A DNA stretch of 33,748 nt from positions 1 to 33,748 of the forward strand of contig BQIW01000048.1 of NCBI GenBank assembly GCA_021604105.1, read 5' to 3'. Below are positions 21,938-31,328 of the stretch, piece after piece. The DNA is from Nitrospirales bacterium (lineage in GTDB: Bacteria; Nitrospirota; Nitrospiria; Nitrospirales; UBA8639). The stretch's first letter is position 1, and every line of letters begins with the position of its first letter. The notes under the pieces are model-generated. The model had not been told where the DNA came from. It saw only the letters and a list, made by a program, of their open reading frames with translations, and ran no database searches. Made by a program: the position numbers and the translations under genes.

Positions 21938-22570
21938 TCAGGGTGTTTCCTTATTTTCTGAAGGCAGCGGAAACGAGATGATGATGCCGCCCATGACATC
22001 TCCCAATTTAAAATCCCGCTTGGAACTCAACAAATGCCCGTTGTGACAATCCACGCAGGCTTTGGAAACAGCCCGATCCGCATAAATGGCTTTAAAAAAC
22101 CGTTGATCCCCTCTCTTGATAATTCCACTATACACTTCCTCGGGATCTTCAGCGACGACTTTTAATCCGGCCTCTTCAAAGACGGTGCTTGGCCCATTCT
22201 CCTCATAAATCGGCCACAAACTGGCCAGACGATACCGCAGCCCGGACCCACCCATTTCGACCACTCTCCCACCCATCAAGAGCATTTGCGCCGGGAGTGG
22301 AAGCGCCTTCCGTTGCTTCCAGGCTTCTGCGGAAATCACAATACGATTTTCCTGCATACGATCCACCACATGCGTCGTATAGAGCGCTCTGTCTGCAGCA
22401 ATCACCGCATGAATATACCCGGCCACCACCTCTGGATTGAAACTGACTTCAGTCCCTGGTGTCACCCGCACTTCCGCTTCATCCTCACCCGCAGCTTGAG
22501 CGCTATCCCAACCGCCCGAGCACACCACAGCCCCAAGCACAATTCCTAAGAACAATAGTCGTAAACCCAT
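21938..22570 (-). CDS. DUF3365 (Tll0287-like) exported monoheme protein
   Basis: 210 residues from the ATG at 22570, fixed by aaggaggg; the frame upstream to 22627 is excluded. Signal peptide with hydrophobic 4-16, cleavage near AQA-AG. The body has the DUF3365/Tll0287-like pattern RYRLASLWPIYEENGPSTVF. Near the C-terminus there is one heme-c motif, CVDCH (C172, C175, H176), followed by NGHLLSSKRDFKLGDVMGGI. Such domains are periplasmic heme sensors or electron carriers. It lies 161 bp downstream of the cupredoxin gene on the same strand and near the giant copper oxidase, so a redox-partner role is plausible. Confidence 0.88.
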   Translation of the reverse strand: MGLRLLFLGIVLGAVVCSGGWDSAQAAGEDEAEVRVTPGTEVSFNPEVVAGYIHAVIAADRALYTTHVVDRMQENRIVISAEAWKQRKALPLPAQMLLMGGRVVEMGGSGLRYRLASLWPIYEENGPSTVFEEAGLKVVAEDPEEVYSGIIKRGDQRFFKAIYADRAVSKACVDCHNGHLLSSKRDFKLGDVMGGIIISFPLPSENKETP

Positions 22571-22731
22571 GGTCGCCCTCCTTTCATCCGTCATTACTTC
22601 AGTGAATGAATCAACATCCTGTTGCATGGCTTCAAGCGGGCTACCTCAGAAGATTCCTCCTGTTCTTGGACTATCAGTCATCATGTTCCCTCGTCTGCCG
22701 GGTGACCACTCGTGGCCCGCATGACAGCCCG

Positions 22732-23652
22732 TTAGGGAATCTGGCGTCTAATCGAAGGCACGATTTCAAGTCCCTCTTCCAATAACTCCAATCCAAACCT
22801 GGGATTCTCCTCAATTTCATGCGCACTCCGTCGGCCTTGTGGAGCCTCATACTGAAAATTCGCCACAGTGGCCTTCTGAGCGGTTACCGTGATGGGTTGT
22901 TCCACAAACTCCTTCATCCCGGGATGCCAGGCAGTCAGCATATAGTCCCCAGGAGGAACGTCGGTAATTTCAAAGGTTCCATCCTCGGGGGTAATCGCAT
23001 AATAGGGGTTTTCCAACACGAGTCCCCAGGAAAACATATAGGGATGGAATCCGCACTGCATGACAAACACATTCCGTCCTTTTCGTAAATGAATTTTTTC
23101 CACCATTGGTTCACCGGGGAGGTGTTTCTTGCCGAATATTCCCGCCACCTTGTGATACGGGTTCATCGGGAGGGGACGATTGAACAATACCCTGGCTCCT
23201 CGCTCTCTAGCCGTTTCATATCCCTGAATATCATGCTCGACCGGATCCATGTTGACCACAGTCAGTTTGTCCCCATCGCGCAGTACATTGACAAACGGAA
23301 TAAATTCACAGTCGACTGATTCAATCCTGACCTTGGGTAAATTGAACGGTTTCCCTTTTTCGATATCTTTGAGATAGACCACCACATCTTTAAGACTTTG
23401 ATCAGGCCCGATAATAAAATCCTCAACAATGCGCCAACCCGTTCCCGTAGAGATAGTTCCACAAAACACCGGATCGGGAATCGTCACCAGATTAAAGGCC
23501 ATGGGTCTGGGCTTTTCTCCCGTAATGGTCACTTTCCCTTGAATGGTTCCCCCATCAGTCACGGTTATTTCATCGTAGGACCAGCCCGTTTGCGCAAACA
23601 GCGCTATAAGCCCAGCCCCGACGATCCCTTTCCATACGTTTCGGCCCTTCAT
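22732..23652 (-). CDS. Exported cupredoxin-like protein with carboxypeptidase-regulatory-like domain
   Basis: 306 residues from the ATG at 23652 (gggagg five bases upstream). Signal peptide about 1-25. The cupredoxin part, about 85-215, carries a type-1 copper set: H140 in PVEHDIQGYE and C200, H203, M206 in QCGFHPYM. The C-x2-H-x2-M spacing is that of amicyanin. Residues about 216-268 (EDGTFEITDVPPGDYMLTAW) are a carboxypeptidase-regulatory-like beta sandwich. It should be a periplasmic blue-copper electron carrier or copper protein. It is encoded just downstream of the multicopper oxidase but behind a strong terminator, so it probably has its own promoter or depends on read-through. Confidence 0.85.
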   Translation of the reverse strand: MKGRNVWKGIVGAGLIALFAQTGWSYDEITVTDGGTIQGKVTITGEKPRPMAFNLVTIPDPVFCGTISTGTGWRIVEDFIIGPDQSLKDVVVYLKDIEKGKPFNLPKVRIESVDCEFIPFVNVLRDGDKLTVVNMDPVEHDIQGYETARERGARVLFNRPLPMNPYHKVAGIFGKKHLPGEPMVEKIHLRKGRNVFVMQCGFHPYMFSWGLVLENPYYAITPEDGTFEITDVPPGDYMLTAWHPGMKEFVEQPITVTAQKATVANFQYEAPQGRRSAHEIEENPRFGLELLEEGLEIVPSIRRQIP

Positions 23653-23717
23653 TCTTTCCTCCCACAAAAAATAAAATGATTACCATGCTTAAGGACATTC
23701 TATCGAACCATCTTCTC

Positions 23718-23784: not shown

Positions 23785-26700
23785 TTACTTCGCGACGGTA
23801 GGAATAATACGCGGCTCGCCACTGGGCTCATCAAGAGCCGCTTGTTTGGATGACATAGCCGGACCGTCCAATGGCTGAATCCGTTGATCTGTTTTCGGCA
23901 ACACCCGAAGATAGCCCCATTGTCCCGATTGGGAATAGGGTAACCGGCCATTGCTCCACACATAATCTCCGGGTAAGGCCCATTTGCCTCCAGCCGATGG
24001 CAGGAAGACATCCAACTCTTCCGAACCCGAGAACTCCACGGTGCTAATCATATCCGCACCGGGAAGGAAGGGTTCGATCGGCCATTCATGCTTCTCCACC
24101 GTGAACATCCCGTTCTGCTCACTGCTGGCGCCAAAGACGTGAATCCGTACTTTGTCGCCGGCATGGGCTTCAATCAACGGTGTCACAGGATCCTGCGGCT
24201 CATCCACTTGGCACGGTTGGAACATCCGGCCCAACGAACAACCGGTTTCTTCCCGATGAAGATAGGGTTCGGCGCGATAGTTGACGCCGGTTAGCCCTGC
24301 TACATTTTGCACATAGGGCATAAAGCTGGTCCCGATGATGTTATCCTCGTCCTGGAAATACAAGGCCACATCCCGGTAGCTCACCCGGTTCTCATTTCCC
24401 TGAATAGTCCGATCCACGATCACATCGGCATTCCAACTATTTTTTAGAGAAATATCTTCCCCGGTTTTGGGATCACGGTATTGTGATCCTTTAGGTCCGA
24501 TAATGATTCCCCCGAACAGGCCGTTTCGGGGATTCATGGACACATTTCCCCAATCCCACACCAACGTTTGCGTCTCGCCATTGAAGGGATCCGCATAATA
24601 CGTGTACATTCGGGATTCTCCGGGCGCCACGGTTTGGTCGCCGGGATTATTCCCTAAATTTAGACCTTGGGAATCTTTGGGATCGAAGGCCAGTCCGAAG
24701 GCCGAGAACGACGCTCGCCCTTCTTTCAGCTTATTCGTCAATTTGACTTGGAGACAGTCACCCACGTTGGCCCGTAACGTTAACGGCATGGGCTGCACAT
24801 CACCTCCAACCTTTTTCACCTCATCTTCGAGGACATAGATTTTGGCTTGAGGATTGCGCAATTCAATCTTGCGTTCAAAGTCCACTTCGATCGCTTCCGG
24901 AGCATCGCTATTGAAGCTCATTTCCGGATGATCCAAGGCCACGACATTGAAGCTCCTTACCGGAGCCTCTTTCGGACAAACCGGTAATCGCTCCGGCATG
25001 CCTTCTTTGCCATAGGCTTTATTCGGCAAGGGCTGCAGATCATTCACCGGCTTATCTAAGACCCGAATCAGCCCCCAAGAACCTTCCGAAAACTTCGAGC
25101 TCCGGCCATTGAAGAACATATAATCTCCGGCTTGATGACGCGGACCACCCGCTTCAGGAATAACCAGGTCATACCGTTCGGCAATTCCGATATGCAGCGA
25201 ATGTTTGCGATTAGCTTCCTGCGCATATCGTTCTGACCAGAACGTATGGCCGGACAACGTAAACACGTTACTTTCATTCATCGTGACATCCAACAGCCGG
25301 AACACAATGGCATCGCCCAGATAGGCCCGAACCATGGCCGTGCTGGGATCACCATGTACTACACTGCTGAATATTTGCGATGGCTCCGGGTTATTCGCCA
25401 GTCGTTGCGCGAAGGGCTCTGACCGGAAATTGAAGGCTCCCCCGGTGGTATGCGTCCCGCCATTCAGGAACGGCATGGGCGTCATCTTGATTTTATCATT
25501 CGGTGGCATAATGAACGATACCGTCCGACCCGCTTCCAACGCCACATCCACCGGTTGTCCTGGAGGATTACCGGCGGTCACGATATTCACCGTGTGCGGC
25601 ACGGTATCCATGATGTGCACCATCAATTCGCGGAAGCTGCCGGCCACATCATGTCCCACACGTTCCACCGCATGGATGTCAGCGACCGGACCCGTACGAA
25701 TCCGTTTCCCGGTTTTCGGATCATGCCACGTCGAGCCGAAGGGTTCGGCAATCATGGTTCCCACCGCGCCGTGGGGCCACGTCGTGCCACCAAAGGCATG
25801 ATCATGCCAGAATACACTGCCCACATCCGCGTCTACCCAGAACCGCTGCCGCACATATTCCACAGTCACAATGTCCTCGACCGGATGCGCATTCTTCAAG
25901 GGCTGGGCAAAGGTCAACGTATTGCCATTAATTTTGACAATCCGTCGCACCTCCTGGCCTTTGACATTATCCGCACCGATCAGAATCGGAATGCCCACGT
26001 GATATTGCTTGGCATTCGAAACCTCCAGGGTTTTGTCACCTTTCTTGGCGGCCTTCGTCACCTTCGCATTCATCGGCACCGGCAACCCTTTATCCGATTT
26101 TTTCTCGAATTGGGTAAACGGCCGCATGGACTGTTCATACGAAAACCCTGAAATCACCCCATCAGATGCCTGATTGTCGAACTGGAAGAAATGGAAATGC
26201 GTGTTGATCTTGGACGACTGGAAATTCGTGATATCGTCATCCAACCATTCACTGGTCAGCGTCCAATCGATGCAATCATAGACATTCGCCCGAACCACCA
26301 ACGGGAATTTTTTGTCGTTGTTGGCCCGCACTTCTTCCTCTTCCTCATGCACAACATAGAGAAGCCCGTTGGGATCTACAATTGGCGGCTCTTTTCCTTC
26401 GGCAGCCGACAATTCTATCGGCAGCTTAATAAAATGCACATTGTAATCCTGTGATCCGGCTCGATCCGGACACAAACTCCAAGGGCCATTTTCGCCGGCC
26501 TTAGCCGGTTCGACCGACCGAGTTCCATCCGGATTCAATCGGATCATTTCCAACCATGGGGCGGGATTATGATCATTAGAAAACGGCGCACGTTTTCCGA
26601 AATGTGGCGTGAGCCACGGCCATGCCACTTTTCCGGTTGACGGTTCAAACCAAATGGCCCGCCGTTCCCCGGCTTTATATCCCTGCCACTCCGGCCGATA

Positions 26701-28668
26701 TTTGGGATTTTCCCCAAGGGTCGGTTCCTTCTCGCTCATGGCCTTCGTACCATCCCACACCCAATCCATGACGGTGGCATCATAGGCCTTCATTTGACCG
26801 GCCTCATCATCTTTATGTCCGGGCTTGCCTTGATTGCTGAGCTGCATTTCCACCCAGTCTTTGATATTGACGATAGCGGGTTCGGCTTTCCAATCACTTT
26901 TGCCTTGACCCACAATTTTGAATTGCTTGCCAAACCAATTGACGGTCTTGCCCACCAGTTGATCGGACGTCACAGGTTTGTGAATGCGGCCTAACCGATC
27001 CGGCAATTCCCGCAAAGGAGCCATCACGTCATTTTGCACACCCGGCTCTTGCAGGCTGTTATACACACGCCAGTAGCCCCACATACCGGCCACATAGTGA
27101 TGCGCCACATGGCAGTGAAAAAGAAAATCTCCCGCCAACCATTGGCACAGACCCGAGCCGCATTCTGTCTCCAGATCTAACGCCTCAGACGGCCCAATCA
27201 CTTCCACATCAACCCGGTCCGACTTCGTCCGGATCACCGGATATTTTACAGGGCCGTTCTGCCCCGTACTCCAGACCGGCATCTGCGTCGCACGTGGGCT
27301 CCGTTGCCACCGAATCGACCCACCGTGAGGATGATGCGAATGGAAGACTTCCGATCCACCGTGCACGATACGGAATTTAGCTGGGTCACCCAAATAACTC
27401 CGGGGAATAGTCGGGGCGGCATCACCAAAGGTATAGGAACTATACGCCATCGACTCATCTTCAAATCCAAAGTATTCATGTTGCACGTGCATATTGTTGA
27501 TGCCGAACGGCTCACTCCGATAATTGAGAGCCCGGGCACCCGGACGATAGGCATCGGTGAGCGGATCCCGCTGAGGCAGGAAGTCTCCATGCTTATTCAC
27601 CGGACGAAACGCTTCATCACCGACTTCATGATAAATCAGGACAAATTCCCGAAAGTCGGGACCGTCCCCATTATCAATCATCACCTGCCAGCCACTGGTG
27701 GCTTCCGTGGCCGGTCCCGTACCTAAGGGCTCGTAGTAATTCGACCCGCGGGGTTCCACGACGAACACACCGAAGAGCCCCATGACCGTCAGTTCCCGGT
27801 CATTGCTATAGGTATGAAATTGCTTTCCACCTTCCTGGGTATCCGGATGGATGTACCATTCCATTTCAATCGATTCGCCTTCAGCCGCCACCGTGTCAGG
27901 ATTGGTCGTTGTCGCAGCCTGACCGGTCTCGCTCATCACCATATCGGAACCATTGATATGCAAACTGACTTCTTCGCCGAATTCCAATTGGTTGCGCAAC
28001 GTAATCTTGACGCAATCACCTTGATTGCCCCGGATCACCAACGGTTGGATCCACTGATCCTGGATGCCATTTTTCACACCCCCCGGATCAGCATGCCCTT
28101 CCTTCTCACGAGCCTCGGCATTTTCGGCTTCCTCCTCACGGATCTTGTCAATATTTTCAGTCAAGGCATACATATATCCAGGATAATAATCCAGCCATTG
28201 ATTTAAGCTGATTTCCACATCAATGGCTGAGACATCGTAACTTCGGACGGGCGCTGTCTTGGGACATAACCCTCCTTTCATGGACACCGGCTCCACACCG
28301 GGAGTACTCGCCAGCAGGCCATTCGCCGGCCCCCCTCCATATTGATGAATCATCGACATGGAATCAAAGGCTCCGGTGTCGGCACCCTTATGCTCCATGT
28401 CCTTCTGCATTTGCTCCATCATGCGGTGATGCTGCTGTTCAACCAGGGCCGCCCGTTCCGCACGCCCTTCCATGGCATCCTCCACAATCGTCTGGCCCTT
28501 GAGCTGTTCGGCCCAACCGGGAGACTGCGCCGGCATCCCCGTTTGTTGGGCGTGTGGAGGAGATGCATTTTCAGCACTAACAAAGGATGGAGTAGCCCAA
28601 AAGCTCCCTCCTCCCATCAGCGCCAAAAATATAGACGCGGTTAAAAATCTACTCTTGCCGTGATACAT
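23785..28668 (-). CDS. Giant exported multicopper oxidase, MnxG/MofA-like permuted type
   Basis: 1627 residues, SD taaggagg, signal peptide about 1-32 (cleavage near VSA-EN). It holds several cupredoxin-like domains, and four copper motifs are present in unusual order. First come HSHHPHG (443-449) and HCHVAHHYVAGM (518-529), normally the last two motifs. Then come HFH (824-826) and HDH with WPHG (955-967), normally the first two. This permuted order and SDGVISGFSYEQSMRPF recall MnxG/MofA-type manganese oxidases. The type-1 ligands would be H443, C519, H524 and M529. Residues about 79-107 are Met/His-rich (HHRMMEQMQKDMEHK). Residues 1228-1590 are a further cupredoxin-like pair without copper motifs. 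The substrate (Mn, Fe, Cu or organic) is not proven. Confidence 0.9.
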   Translation of the reverse strand: MYHGKSRFLTASIFLALMGGGSFWATPSFVSAENASPPHAQQTGMPAQSPGWAEQLKGQTIVEDAMEGRAERAALVEQQHHRMMEQMQKDMEHKGADTGAFDSMSMIHQYGGGPANGLLASTPGVEPVSMKGGLCPKTAPVRSYDVSAIDVEISLNQWLDYYPGYMYALTENIDKIREEEAENAEAREKEGHADPGGVKNGIQDQWIQPLVIRGNQGDCVKITLRNQLEFGEEVSLHINGSDMVMSETGQAATTTNPDTVAAEGESIEMEWYIHPDTQEGGKQFHTYSNDRELTVMGLFGVFVVEPRGSNYYEPLGTGPATEATSGWQVMIDNGDGPDFREFVLIYHEVGDEAFRPVNKHGDFLPQRDPLTDAYRPGARALNYRSEPFGINNMHVQHEYFGFEDESMAYSSYTFGDAAPTIPRSYLGDPAKFRIVHGGSEVFHSHHPHGGSIRWQRSPRATQMPVWSTGQNGPVKYPVIRTKSDRVDVEVIGPSEALDLETECGSGLCQWLAGDFLFHCHVAHHYVAGMWGYWRVYNSLQEPGVQNDVMAPLRELPDRLGRIHKPVTSDQLVGKTVNWFGKQFKIVGQGKSDWKAEPAIVNIKDWVEMQLSNQGKPGHKDDEAGQMKAYDATVMDWVWDGTKAMSEKEPTLGENPKYRPEWQGYKAGERRAIWFEPSTGKVAWPWLTPHFGKRAPFSNDHNPAPWLEMIRLNPDGTRSVEPAKAGENGPWSLCPDRAGSQDYNVHFIKLPIELSAAEGKEPPIVDPNGLLYVVHEEEEEVRANNDKKFPLVVRANVYDCIDWTLTSEWLDDDITNFQSSKINTHFHFFQFDNQASDGVISGFSYEQSMRPFTQFEKKSDKGLPVPMNAKVTKAAKKGDKTLEVSNAKQYHVGIPILIGADNVKGQEVRRIVKINGNTLTFAQPLKNAHPVEDIVTVEYVRQRFWVDADVGSVFWHDHAFGGTTWPHGAVGTMIAEPFGSTWHDPKTGKRIRTGPVADIHAVERVGHDVAGSFRELMVHIMDTVPHTVNIVTAGNPPGQPVDVALEAGRTVSFIMPPNDKIKMTPMPFLNGGTHTTGGAFNFRSEPFAQRLANNPEPSQIFSSVVHGDPSTAMVRAYLGDAIVFRLLDVTMNESNVFTLSGHTFWSERYAQEANRKHSLHIGIAERYDLVIPEAGGPRHQAGDYMFFNGRSSKFSEGSWGLIRVLDKPVNDLQPLPNKAYGKEGMPERLPVCPKEAPVRSFNVVALDHPEMSFNSDAPEAIEVDFERKIELRNPQAKIYVLEDEVKKVGGDVQPMPLTLRANVGDCLQVKLTNKLKEGRASFSAFGLAFDPKDSQGLNLGNNPGDQTVAPGESRMYTYYADPFNGETQTLVWDWGNVSMNPRNGLFGGIIIGPKGSQYRDPKTGEDISLKNSWNADVIVDRTIQGNENRVSYRDVALYFQDEDNIIGTSFMPYVQNVAGLTGVNYRAEPYLHREETGCSLGRMFQPCQVDEPQDPVTPLIEAHAGDKVRIHVFGASSEQNGMFTVEKHEWPIEPFLPGADMISTVEFSGSEELDVFLPSAGGKWALPGDYVWSNGRLPYSQSGQWGYLRVLPKTDQRIQPLDGPAMSSKQAALDEPSGEPRIIPTVAK

Positions 28669-29116: not shown

Positions 29117-30535
29117 TTAAGAAATATGATAGTCCCGTAATTTGTTGTAGAGGCTGGAACGACTGATCCTCAAGGCACGTGCAGCGCGGGTCTTATCTCC
29201 CTTCGCATCCTGGAGGGCTTGGAGGATTCTTGACCGTTCCGCTTCCTGCCGAGCGATTTTCCCGATCGAGCTCAAATCGCTTTTGTCAGGTTGCAGCGGA
29301 TGATCGGCAAAAAAATCTTGTACTTCAATTGTGGAATGCGGGCATGTGACCACCACCCGTTCAATCAAGTTTTCTAATTCCCGGACATTCCCAGGCCACG
29401 AATGGTGCACGAGAGCCGTTTGGGCATCCGGGCTGAGGTGCATCGGCTCACGCCCGTGCTTTCTGGCGCATTGCTCCAAAAAATATTTCACCAGCAATAG
29501 GATATCTTCTCTCCGCTCCCTTAAGGGCGGGACGGTGAGCGGGAGGACGGCGAGCCGATAGTATAAATCCGCACGAAACAACTTGGTTGCCACGAGATGC
29601 TCCAGAGGTTTATTCCCGGCAGAGATGACCCTCACATTCACCTTGATGGATCCATTGCTTCCCACGGGCTTGATTTCGCCTTCCTGCAGGACGCGAAGTA
29701 AACGGGCTTGGAATGCAGGAGTGGTATCAGTAATTTCATCCAAAAAAATCGTGCCGCCTTCGGCTTCTTCAAACAAACCTTTGCGATCAGCTACGGCTCC
29801 GGTAAAGGATCCACGTACATGGCCAAATAATTCGCTTTCCAGCAAAGTTTCGGGCAATGCACTGCATTCCACCACAATAAAGGGACGGAGGCGTCGCCGA
29901 CTCAAGGCATGAATGGTCTTCGCCACCAATTCCTTGCCCGTTCCACTTTCCCCTTGAATGAGCACCGTTGCCTCACTCGCGGCGATCAATCGCACCATTT
30001 CCACCAATTGTTGAATCGCCTCACTTTCTCCGATGATCGTGGGAGGTACAATCTCCTGGAAGGATTCCCCTGACAGTTTAAGCGGGTCGGAAGAATCTTC
30101 GTCCTGTGGAACCATCATAATACTCTCACTCCCCCGAGCCCCCATCAATATCGCAAAATGGGTCATACCGGTCATGCTTTTCAATGGCACAGCACGAGGA
30201 AACGGGCACCCAGGCGTGGGAACAGCGGAAGTAGGACAGGGGAAAATTTCCTGAATTTGCCTGTCAGACTGAAACAGTTCCATTGCGTGACAGGGGTCAC
30301 ATGGGGTCTGGGGATCGGAAGACAGTGAACCGGTGGAAGAAATGGACGGCGAAGAGGTTAATGGACAGTTTTTGGCTATTTTATTGGCTGAGGGATTGGC
30401 ATACACCAATTCCTTTTGAGGATTGAAAATCACAACCGGCTCATCCACATGCTGCGCCAGAAACTTCAATCCTTCAATCCTCGCGCTCAAGGATACATCA
30501 GAATCAGAATCCCGGTGCACAAACGATCCGGCCAT
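29117..30535 (-). CDS. Sigma-54-dependent activator, PAS-like-AAA+-Fis
   Basis: 472 residues, SD aagga. The N-terminal PAS-like region (20-125) begins HVDEPVVIFNPQKELVYANP. It carries a cysteine cluster, CDPCH (79-83), FPC100 and GC110P, of a sort seen in Cys-containing PAS sensors. AAA+ core: Walker A GESGTGKE (195-202), GSFTGA (242-247) in place of GAFTGA, Walker B FLDEITD (264-270), [15 protein letters not shown]. The C-terminal Fis HTH has DKTRAARALRISRSSLYNKL. There is no receiver domain of its own, but a stand-alone receiver gene ends 32 bp upstream in the same operon. It is transcribed toward the giant oxidase gene, its probable target. Confidence 0.92.
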   Translation of the reverse strand: MAGSFVHRDSDSDVSLSARIEGLKFLAQHVDEPVVIFNPQKELVYANPSANKIAKNCPLTSSPSISSTGSLSSDPQTPCDPCHAMELFQSDRQIQEIFPCPTSAVPTPGCPFPRAVPLKSMTGMTHFAILMGARGSESIMMVPQDEDSSDPLKLSGESFQEIVPPTIIGESEAIQQLVEMVRLIAASEATVLIQGESGTGKELVAKTIHALSRRRLRPFIVVECSALPETLLESELFGHVRGSFTGAVADRKGLFEEAEGGTIFLDEITDTTPAFQARLLRVLQEGEIKPVGSNGSIKVNVRVISAGNKPLEHLVATKLFRADLYYRLAVLPLTVPPLRERREDILLLVKYFLEQCARKHGREPMHLSPDAQTALVHHSWPGNVRELENLIERVVVTCPHSTIEVQDFFADHPLQPDKSDLSSIGKIARQEAERSRILQALQDAKGDKTRAARALRISRSSLYNKLRDYHIS

Positions 30536-30567: not shown

Positions 30568-30990
30568 TCAATCAAAAGGAATATTCCCGCAGGGATTCAC
30601 CAGACACATTTGACAAATCCATGTCTTTAAATCGGAGATACGAAGAGGTTTTTCGAAATATCCCTTGGCACCACAATCTAACGCTTTCGCTTTGGACTGG
30701 CTATCTCCATACGCAGTCATGACGACAATCGGACACTCCGGTGCCCCTTCCTGGAGCCGACGTAAATAGGAAAACCCGCCATCCGGCATTTTCAAGTCAG
30801 TGACAATCACATTCGGGACCACCGCCTTTAGGACTTTCAAGGCATCTGTCCCATTCTCTGACTCAATCACGCGACACCCTTTTTCTTGAAGGGCATCTAC
30901 AAGCAATGTCCGCATCGCTTCATCATCATCCACTACCAGAATGGTACATGATTGCCCACTGTGTGTTCCCGGTGTGGTAACTGGGGGCAT
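30568..30990 (-). CDS. Stand-alone response-regulator receiver
   Basis: 140 residues from the ATG at 30990 (aagggtgg upstream); a start at 31020 would add 10 residues. It is a CheY-like receiver: acidic pair D21, D22 in VVDDDEAM, phosphoacceptor D65 in VTDLKMPDGG, T92 in VVMTAYG and K114 in YFEKPL. The C-terminal tail ICQMCLVNPCGNIPFD adds three cysteines and no output domain. The next gene, 32 bp on, is a sigma-54 activator lacking a receiver, so the pair may work as a split NtrC-like regulator. No histidine kinase is in the window. Confidence 0.88.
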   Translation of the reverse strand: MPPVTTPGTHSGQSCTILVVDDDEAMRTLLVDALQEKGCRVIESENGTDALKVLKAVVPNVIVTDLKMPDGGFSYLRRLQEGAPECPIVVMTAYGDSQSKAKALDCGAKGYFEKPLRISDLKTWICQMCLVNPCGNIPFD

Positions 30991-31328
30991 TATCCCACCC
31001 TTCTCGGAATCATGGCACACCCATCTCGGAAATAGAAATACTCATAACACTCATATCCTCTTTCCTCATGGCAGACTTGACAGCAAGTTCCGGACCCCTG
31101 ACGTTTATGTTGTACGTGCATAAATTGGCCTATTTTGTCCTTACGCACGCGTCTCAGTGAAATCATCATGTGGATTTTTTCTACACTTAATTGAGAGTCT
31201 TTTTACCCAACACGAGGGAAATCTGAATTTTTCATGCCTAGGAGTAATGAAAAATTGATTCCTCTTCAGACTCATCGTCCTTTGAAATTAGTGGTCGGCA
31301 TTGCCGAAGTTGTCCCCGAAATAGCACT
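30991..31328. other. Intergenic region upstream of the receiver gene
   Basis: About 340 bp without a credible gene. It holds a perfect 10-bp inverted repeat, AATTTTTCAT (31226-31235) and ATGAAAAATT (31247-31256), with an 11-base loop. This could end the small-ORF transcript or bind a regulator. No promoter could be chosen with confidence. Confidence 0.4.

Follow-up and report, generated by a model that had tools for sequence, protein, structure and literature searches.

The question raised by this locus is why a large multicopper oxidase carries its copper-binding motifs in an apparently permuted order. The gene lies in a 33,748-nucleotide stretch of DNA from a Nitrospirales bacterium (the window; contig BQIW01000048.1 of GCA_021604105.1). 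A sequence-only reading of this stretch had noted that motifs that are normally C-terminal (L3 and L4) precede those that are normally N-terminal (L1 and L2), and had proposed that the trinuclear copper site is built from domains joined in a circularly permuted way. Our analyses bear out the motif order and give it another explanation: the trinuclear cluster very probably sits at the interface of the second and third domains (D2/D3) of a six-domain chain, the only interface that keeps its ligands, within a putatively exported oxidase. The gene and the domains of its product are as follows.

23785–28668, minus strand: six-cupredoxin multicopper oxidase, 1627 residues (phmmer against PDB, Pfam)
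27694–28287, minus strand: D1 cupredoxin, odd type, residues 128–325 (hhalign, Pfam Cu-oxidase_3), with relict positions L1 = HIN at 237 and L2 = HTY at 285
27034–27546, minus strand: D2 cupredoxin, even type, residues 375–545, with L3 and L4 (hhalign, motifs)
26482–27033, minus strand: D2–D3 linker region, residues 546–729, outside all domain profiles
25714–26487, minus strand: D3 cupredoxin, odd type, residues 728–985, with L1 and L2 (hhalign, superposition)
25864–26112, minus strand: L1–L2 insert of ~80 residues, at about 853–935 (MnxG alignment, model)
25003–25671, minus strand: D4 cupredoxin, even type, residues 1000–1222, copper ligands lost (hhalign to D6)
24433–24993, minus strand: D5 cupredoxin, odd type, residues 1226–1412, copper ligands lost (hhalign to D1)
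23863–24417, minus strand: D6 cupredoxin, even type, residues 1418–1602, copper ligands lost (hhalign to D4)

Among Pfam families, Cu-oxidase_3 scored above the cut-off (E = 9e-12), and Cu-oxidase_2 and Cu-oxidase scored below it; a weak match to PixA was taken as chance and not as a domain of the oxidase. The gene was absent from the matches of a PF07731 search of its own genome because just a 25-residue stretch of that profile matches D2. Read by eye, the N terminus has a hydrophobic stretch resembling an export signal. The copper motifs, with ligand roles assigned by the established multicopper oxidase scheme, are located as follows.

27322–27342, minus strand: L3 motif HSHHPHG, residues 443–449 (H443 type 1; H446 and H448 trinuclear)
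27082–27117, minus strand: L4 motif HCHVAHHYVAGM, residues 518–529 (H518 and H520 trinuclear; C519, H524 and M529 type 1)
26191–26199, minus strand: L1 motif HFH, residues 824–826 (H824 and H826 invariant, 112/112)
25798–25806, minus strand: L2 motif HDH, residues 955–957 (invariant, 112/112)
25771–25773, minus strand: H966 of WPHG, after L2 (an extra His outside the 12 standard ligands)

Along the chain the motifs thus run L3, L4, L1, L2, and all of them lie where the sequence-only reading had placed them, from H443 (27340–27342) to H966 (25771–25773; its end point, 967, is the Gly next to H966). Over the 1627 residues, HxxHxH occurs at 443 only and HCHxxxHxxxxM at 518 only, and the remaining HxH motifs are those at 824 and 955; the chain has no further HxH. 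In 20,000 shuffles of the oxidase protein HCHxxxHxxxxM never appeared, and HxxHxH alone was present in 5%. The ligand scheme predicts a single type-1 site (H443, C519, H524 and M529) and a single trinuclear site (H446, H448, H518, H520, H824, H826, H955 and H957), which on the motif scan would be the sole set that the chain can make, as had been suggested. D2 would supply all ligands of the type-1 site and half of those of the trinuclear one. The protein has the attributes of its superfamily: the four motifs L1–L4 (eight trinuclear His plus the type-1 set) and cupredoxins recognized by profile. None of the 12 predicted ligands varies among the 112 aligned sequences, which extend down to ~27% identity (for L4 the count is 111/111, one sequence being N-masked there), and the position of H966 is His in 107/112. 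An early regular-expression search had indicated loss of L3 and L1 in the paralogue clade L090–L108; in the alignment every ligand is present, and this clade carries the variants HSHHPHS and HPH at the motif positions.

We compared profiles of the six oxidase segments pairwise with hhalign. Odd domains matched one another (D1–D3, E = 1.2e-8; D1–D5, E = 1.8e-21; D3–D5, E = 7.8e-10), as did even domains (D2–D4, E = 1.2e-9; D2–D6, E = 7.1e-6; D4–D6, E = 2e-17), and no odd–even pair among the six segments fell below E = 0.077. A short motif, CPxxAxxxxxxV, marks the start of each unit, at 135, 733 and 1231. Together, the odd/even matches and the recurring motif indicate that the chain consists of three tandem two-domain units. 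The expectation of a large multi-cupredoxin oxidase holds, and its proposed size of six or more cupredoxins narrows to six and not more in the hhalign profiles. The domain with L1/L2 is odd and the one with L3/L4 even, a placement like that in ordinary oxidases, and D3–D4 runs in the usual N-to-C direction when superposed on two-domain oxidases and on copper nitrite reductases (NirK) (VIA; Z about 14, rmsd 3–4, about 235 residues). Circular permutation was rejected as the simplest reading of the motif order on these domain profiles, in which the odd/even order is unbroken; the same pattern explains the order without permutation.

Three unit–unit interfaces could house a trinuclear cluster (D2/D3, D4/D5 and D6/D1), of which D2/D3 alone keeps its ligands. 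The motif order looks permuted because the cluster would bridge units 1 and 2, where D2 adjoins D3. At the other interfaces, the L4 position of D4 has neither C nor HxH in any aligned sequence, and the L3/L4 ligands of D6 are absent from all aligned sequences. In D1, the L1 position is HxH in 53 of the 112 sequences and the L2 position in 8, both being so in 5; these putative relict histidines fit the loss of a former D6/D1 site and would support loss from a multi-site ancestor. We infer the geometry of the D2/D3 site and the export of the protein and, from the ligand set read by established multicopper oxidase chemistry, the electron path and the reduction of O2. The one type-1 copper, in D2, would take up electrons from the reductant and hand them on, via the His-Cys-His bridge of L4, to the trinuclear cluster at D2/D3, which would reduce O2 to water.

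The closest structural comparison is with MnxG of Bacillus sp. PL-12 (PDB 9bxa), the best PDB match of the oxidase (phmmer E = 4.9e-77) and its nearest solved relative; the profile match to 9bxa had E = 1.4e-92. MnxG likewise has six cupredoxins and, in the alignment, HxxHxH and HCH (D2) followed by HIH and HDH (D3), in keeping with the rearranged order that the sequence-only reading had attributed to it, as well as a His after L2 at the place of H966. The 9bxa structure is of a mutant with Ala at 340, the place of the second type-1 His, which matches its title ‘Mnx H340A’. Identity between the two proteins is about 18–25%, and the oxidase is about 400 residues longer. Its D2–D3 linker, which has no Pfam family and matches no domain profile, exceeds that of MnxG (where the aligned stretches on either side are ~70 residues apart), and between L1 and L2 the alignment of MnxG jumps 3 residues where the oxidase profile has ~88. 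Against the MnxG equivalog model (NCBIfam NF041487) the oxidase scores 134.7 bits (E = 1.7e-39), far under the curated threshold of 3100 bits; it is a relative of MnxG and not an equivalog, and so should not be given that name. A Pfam scan of nearby ORFs found neither MnxE nor MnxF, the complex partners of MnxG, among the annotated neighbours.

An AlphaFold2 model of D1–D4, built from an alignment of 37 relatives, had a mean pLDDT of 55, with most of D2 at 20–30 and essentially unfolded; it was used for the folds of D1 and D3–D4 and for structure ranking, not for cluster geometry. Foldseek ranked 9bxa first (E = 1.5e-33), followed by ceruloplasmin and factors V/VIII, and 9bxa was also the top match by VIA (Z 15.8, rmsd 7.2, 593 aligned). 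The L1–L2 insert was modelled as a small beta fold (strands at pLDDT 74–90).

Ceruloplasmin, which ranked high by Foldseek, also has six cupredoxins in three two-domain units. According to PMC3600357, its cluster lies between D1 and D6 and its mononuclear sites are in D2, D4 and D6, whereas prokaryotic and algal six-domain multicopper blue proteins have the trinuclear site at D2/D3 and a mononuclear site in D2 only. The ceruloplasmin arrangement of trinuclear ligands (D1 plus D6) does not apply to the oxidase, in which D6 is without ligands and D1 has relicts only. Instead, the oxidase has the prokaryotic, MnxG-like layout (six cupredoxins, L3/L4 in D2, L1/L2 in D3 and the other sites lost), and we found no difference in copper-site layout from the six-domain proteins described in PMC3600357. 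Given this published placement, the seemingly permuted order is a known property of six-domain prokaryotic oxidases: it is real and was correctly located, yet it is an established feature of the group. The L3–L4–L1–L2 order can serve as a diagnostic for six-domain oxidases with the cluster at D2/D3.

A true circular permutation of a ceruloplasmin-like protein, in which the C-terminal two-domain unit moved to the N terminus (present D2 being the old D6 and present D3 the old D1), would be expected to yield just this order; with three near-identical units both histories end alike, and the hhalign comparison does not separate them. Nevertheless, the odd/even order is unbroken, and the relict L1/L2 of D1 in many homologues fit the six-domain ancestor with several copper sites and differential loss that is proposed in PMC3600357. 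Because the arrangement is the same in 112/112 sequences, no un-permuted relative was found in the lineage, and we regard a permutation as very unlikely.

Two-domain laccases form their trinuclear cluster between subunits. That the oxidase might do the same, with two incomplete sites joined between D2 of one chain and D3 of another, could accommodate the long D2–D3 linker (about 180 residues) and a model in which D2, unfolded there, is not docked on D3, but is extremely improbable, since the cluster lies within one chain in six-domain relatives (PMC3600357) and homology to MnxG extends over all six domains.

Directly downstream of the oxidase gene lies that of a predicted copper protein.

22732–23667, minus strand: plastocyanin-like neighbour, in an Ig/fn3-like domain (cupredoxin part about 23014–23343)

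Pfam matches of this neighbour cover its C-terminal Ig-like region only. Its model (pLDDT 89) is plastocyanin-like over residues 104–213 (Z 10.7, rmsd 2.5, 89 aligned), and structural matches over residues 30–270 suggest that the plastocyanin-like domain is inserted in a fn3/rhamnogalacturonan-lyase-like domain. In 122–123 of 123 homologues the predicted type-1 ligands (H, C, H and M, in a blue-copper site of the CxxHxxM type) are unchanged. The neighbour is conserved at 67 of the 73 oxidase loci with enough sequence, mostly on the same strand and downstream, at most loci <300 bases from the oxidase and often in two to four copies, in tandem or nearby. It is a candidate redox partner of the oxidase. 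Beyond it, 21938–22627 (minus strand) encodes a Tll0287-like protein with one CXXCH heme motif, which is present in only 12 loci. Upstream of the oxidase are a sigma-54 activator without a receiver of its own (29117–30535, minus strand) and a separate receiver-only response regulator (30568–31020, minus strand), a gene pair that is kept in some close relatives; the two proteins are possible regulators of the oxidase.

By homology to MnxG, Mn(II) is a plausible candidate substrate; the blue-copper neighbour may serve instead, or both may. A putative MnxG-like periplasmic multicopper oxidase, similar to the Mn oxidase of Bacillus SG-1, has been described in Nitrospira defluvii and Nitrospina gracilis; it is conserved in Nitrospira, its gene cluster also includes cupredoxin-like proteins, and it has been proposed to protect the cells from reactive oxygen (PMC3578206). 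All Manganitrophaceae have two multicopper oxidases (PMC9040806). The oxidase may instead be a respiratory or detoxifying enzyme fed by the plastocyanin-like neighbour and not a metal oxidase, for example a protective one in nitrite oxidizers, to which we give a substantial but somewhat less than even chance. The blue-copper neighbour at 67/73 testable loci, the proposed defence role (PMC3578206) and the presence of the gene, mostly in multiple copies, in 21/21 genomes of the genus, which exceeds expectation for an accessory metal oxidase, favour this function; the nearest characterized relative is, however, a Mn oxidase, and a conserved neighbourhood is no proof of electron transfer. Broader still is a tentative and rather doubtful proposal: a Nitrospirales-wide copper module, comprising the MnxG-type six-domain oxidase and a dedicated Ig-nested plastocyanin-like protein, that nitrite oxidizers use as part of their core redox machinery. 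If this were true, the oxidase would be a core redox part in these organisms and not an accessory Mn oxidase. The D2/D3 placement (2013) and the MnxG-like family in Nitrospira and Nitrospina had already been described; the ~80-residue L1–L2 insert, with LysM in some paralogues, and the conserved plastocyanin-like downstream neighbour are newer details. The blue-copper neighbour is a more open lead than the motif order, and identifying the substrate would help to explain activities of these bacteria beyond nitrite oxidation.

Each of the 21 genomes that were sampled within the genus of the window carries the oxidase gene, most with at least two matches. Across the phylum, 69 of 198 sampled genomes gave a match; all full-length matches were from the same class or closer, and outside the class only fragmentary matches (32–40% identity) were obtained. 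Named relatives in the genome scan were nearly all Nitrospirales or Nitrospirota records, N. moscoviensis and N. defluvii among them (the latter with two homologues, L082 and L099); a few metagenome-assembled genomes are labelled otherwise, for example as Opitutales or Nitrosomonas, and probably reflect binning errors. In D1 of eight paralogues (L122–L125 and L131–L133 among them) an HSH-like L2 is intact, and five of these also have L1, which would make up one half of a second trinuclear site that lacks its counterpart in D6. Insert length between L1 and L2 differs between paralogues in the 112-sequence alignment, and in some of them (L041, L045, L046, L047, L051 and L084) a LysM domain, which is peptidoglycan-binding, lies inside this insert of D3 (Pfam E = 2.8e-16 to 4.1e-15). 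Genes near paralogues in other Nitrospira genomes encode FGE-sulfatase-like and HEAT-repeat proteins and further cupredoxin copies (L107, 12997–18846; L082, 14514–15908).
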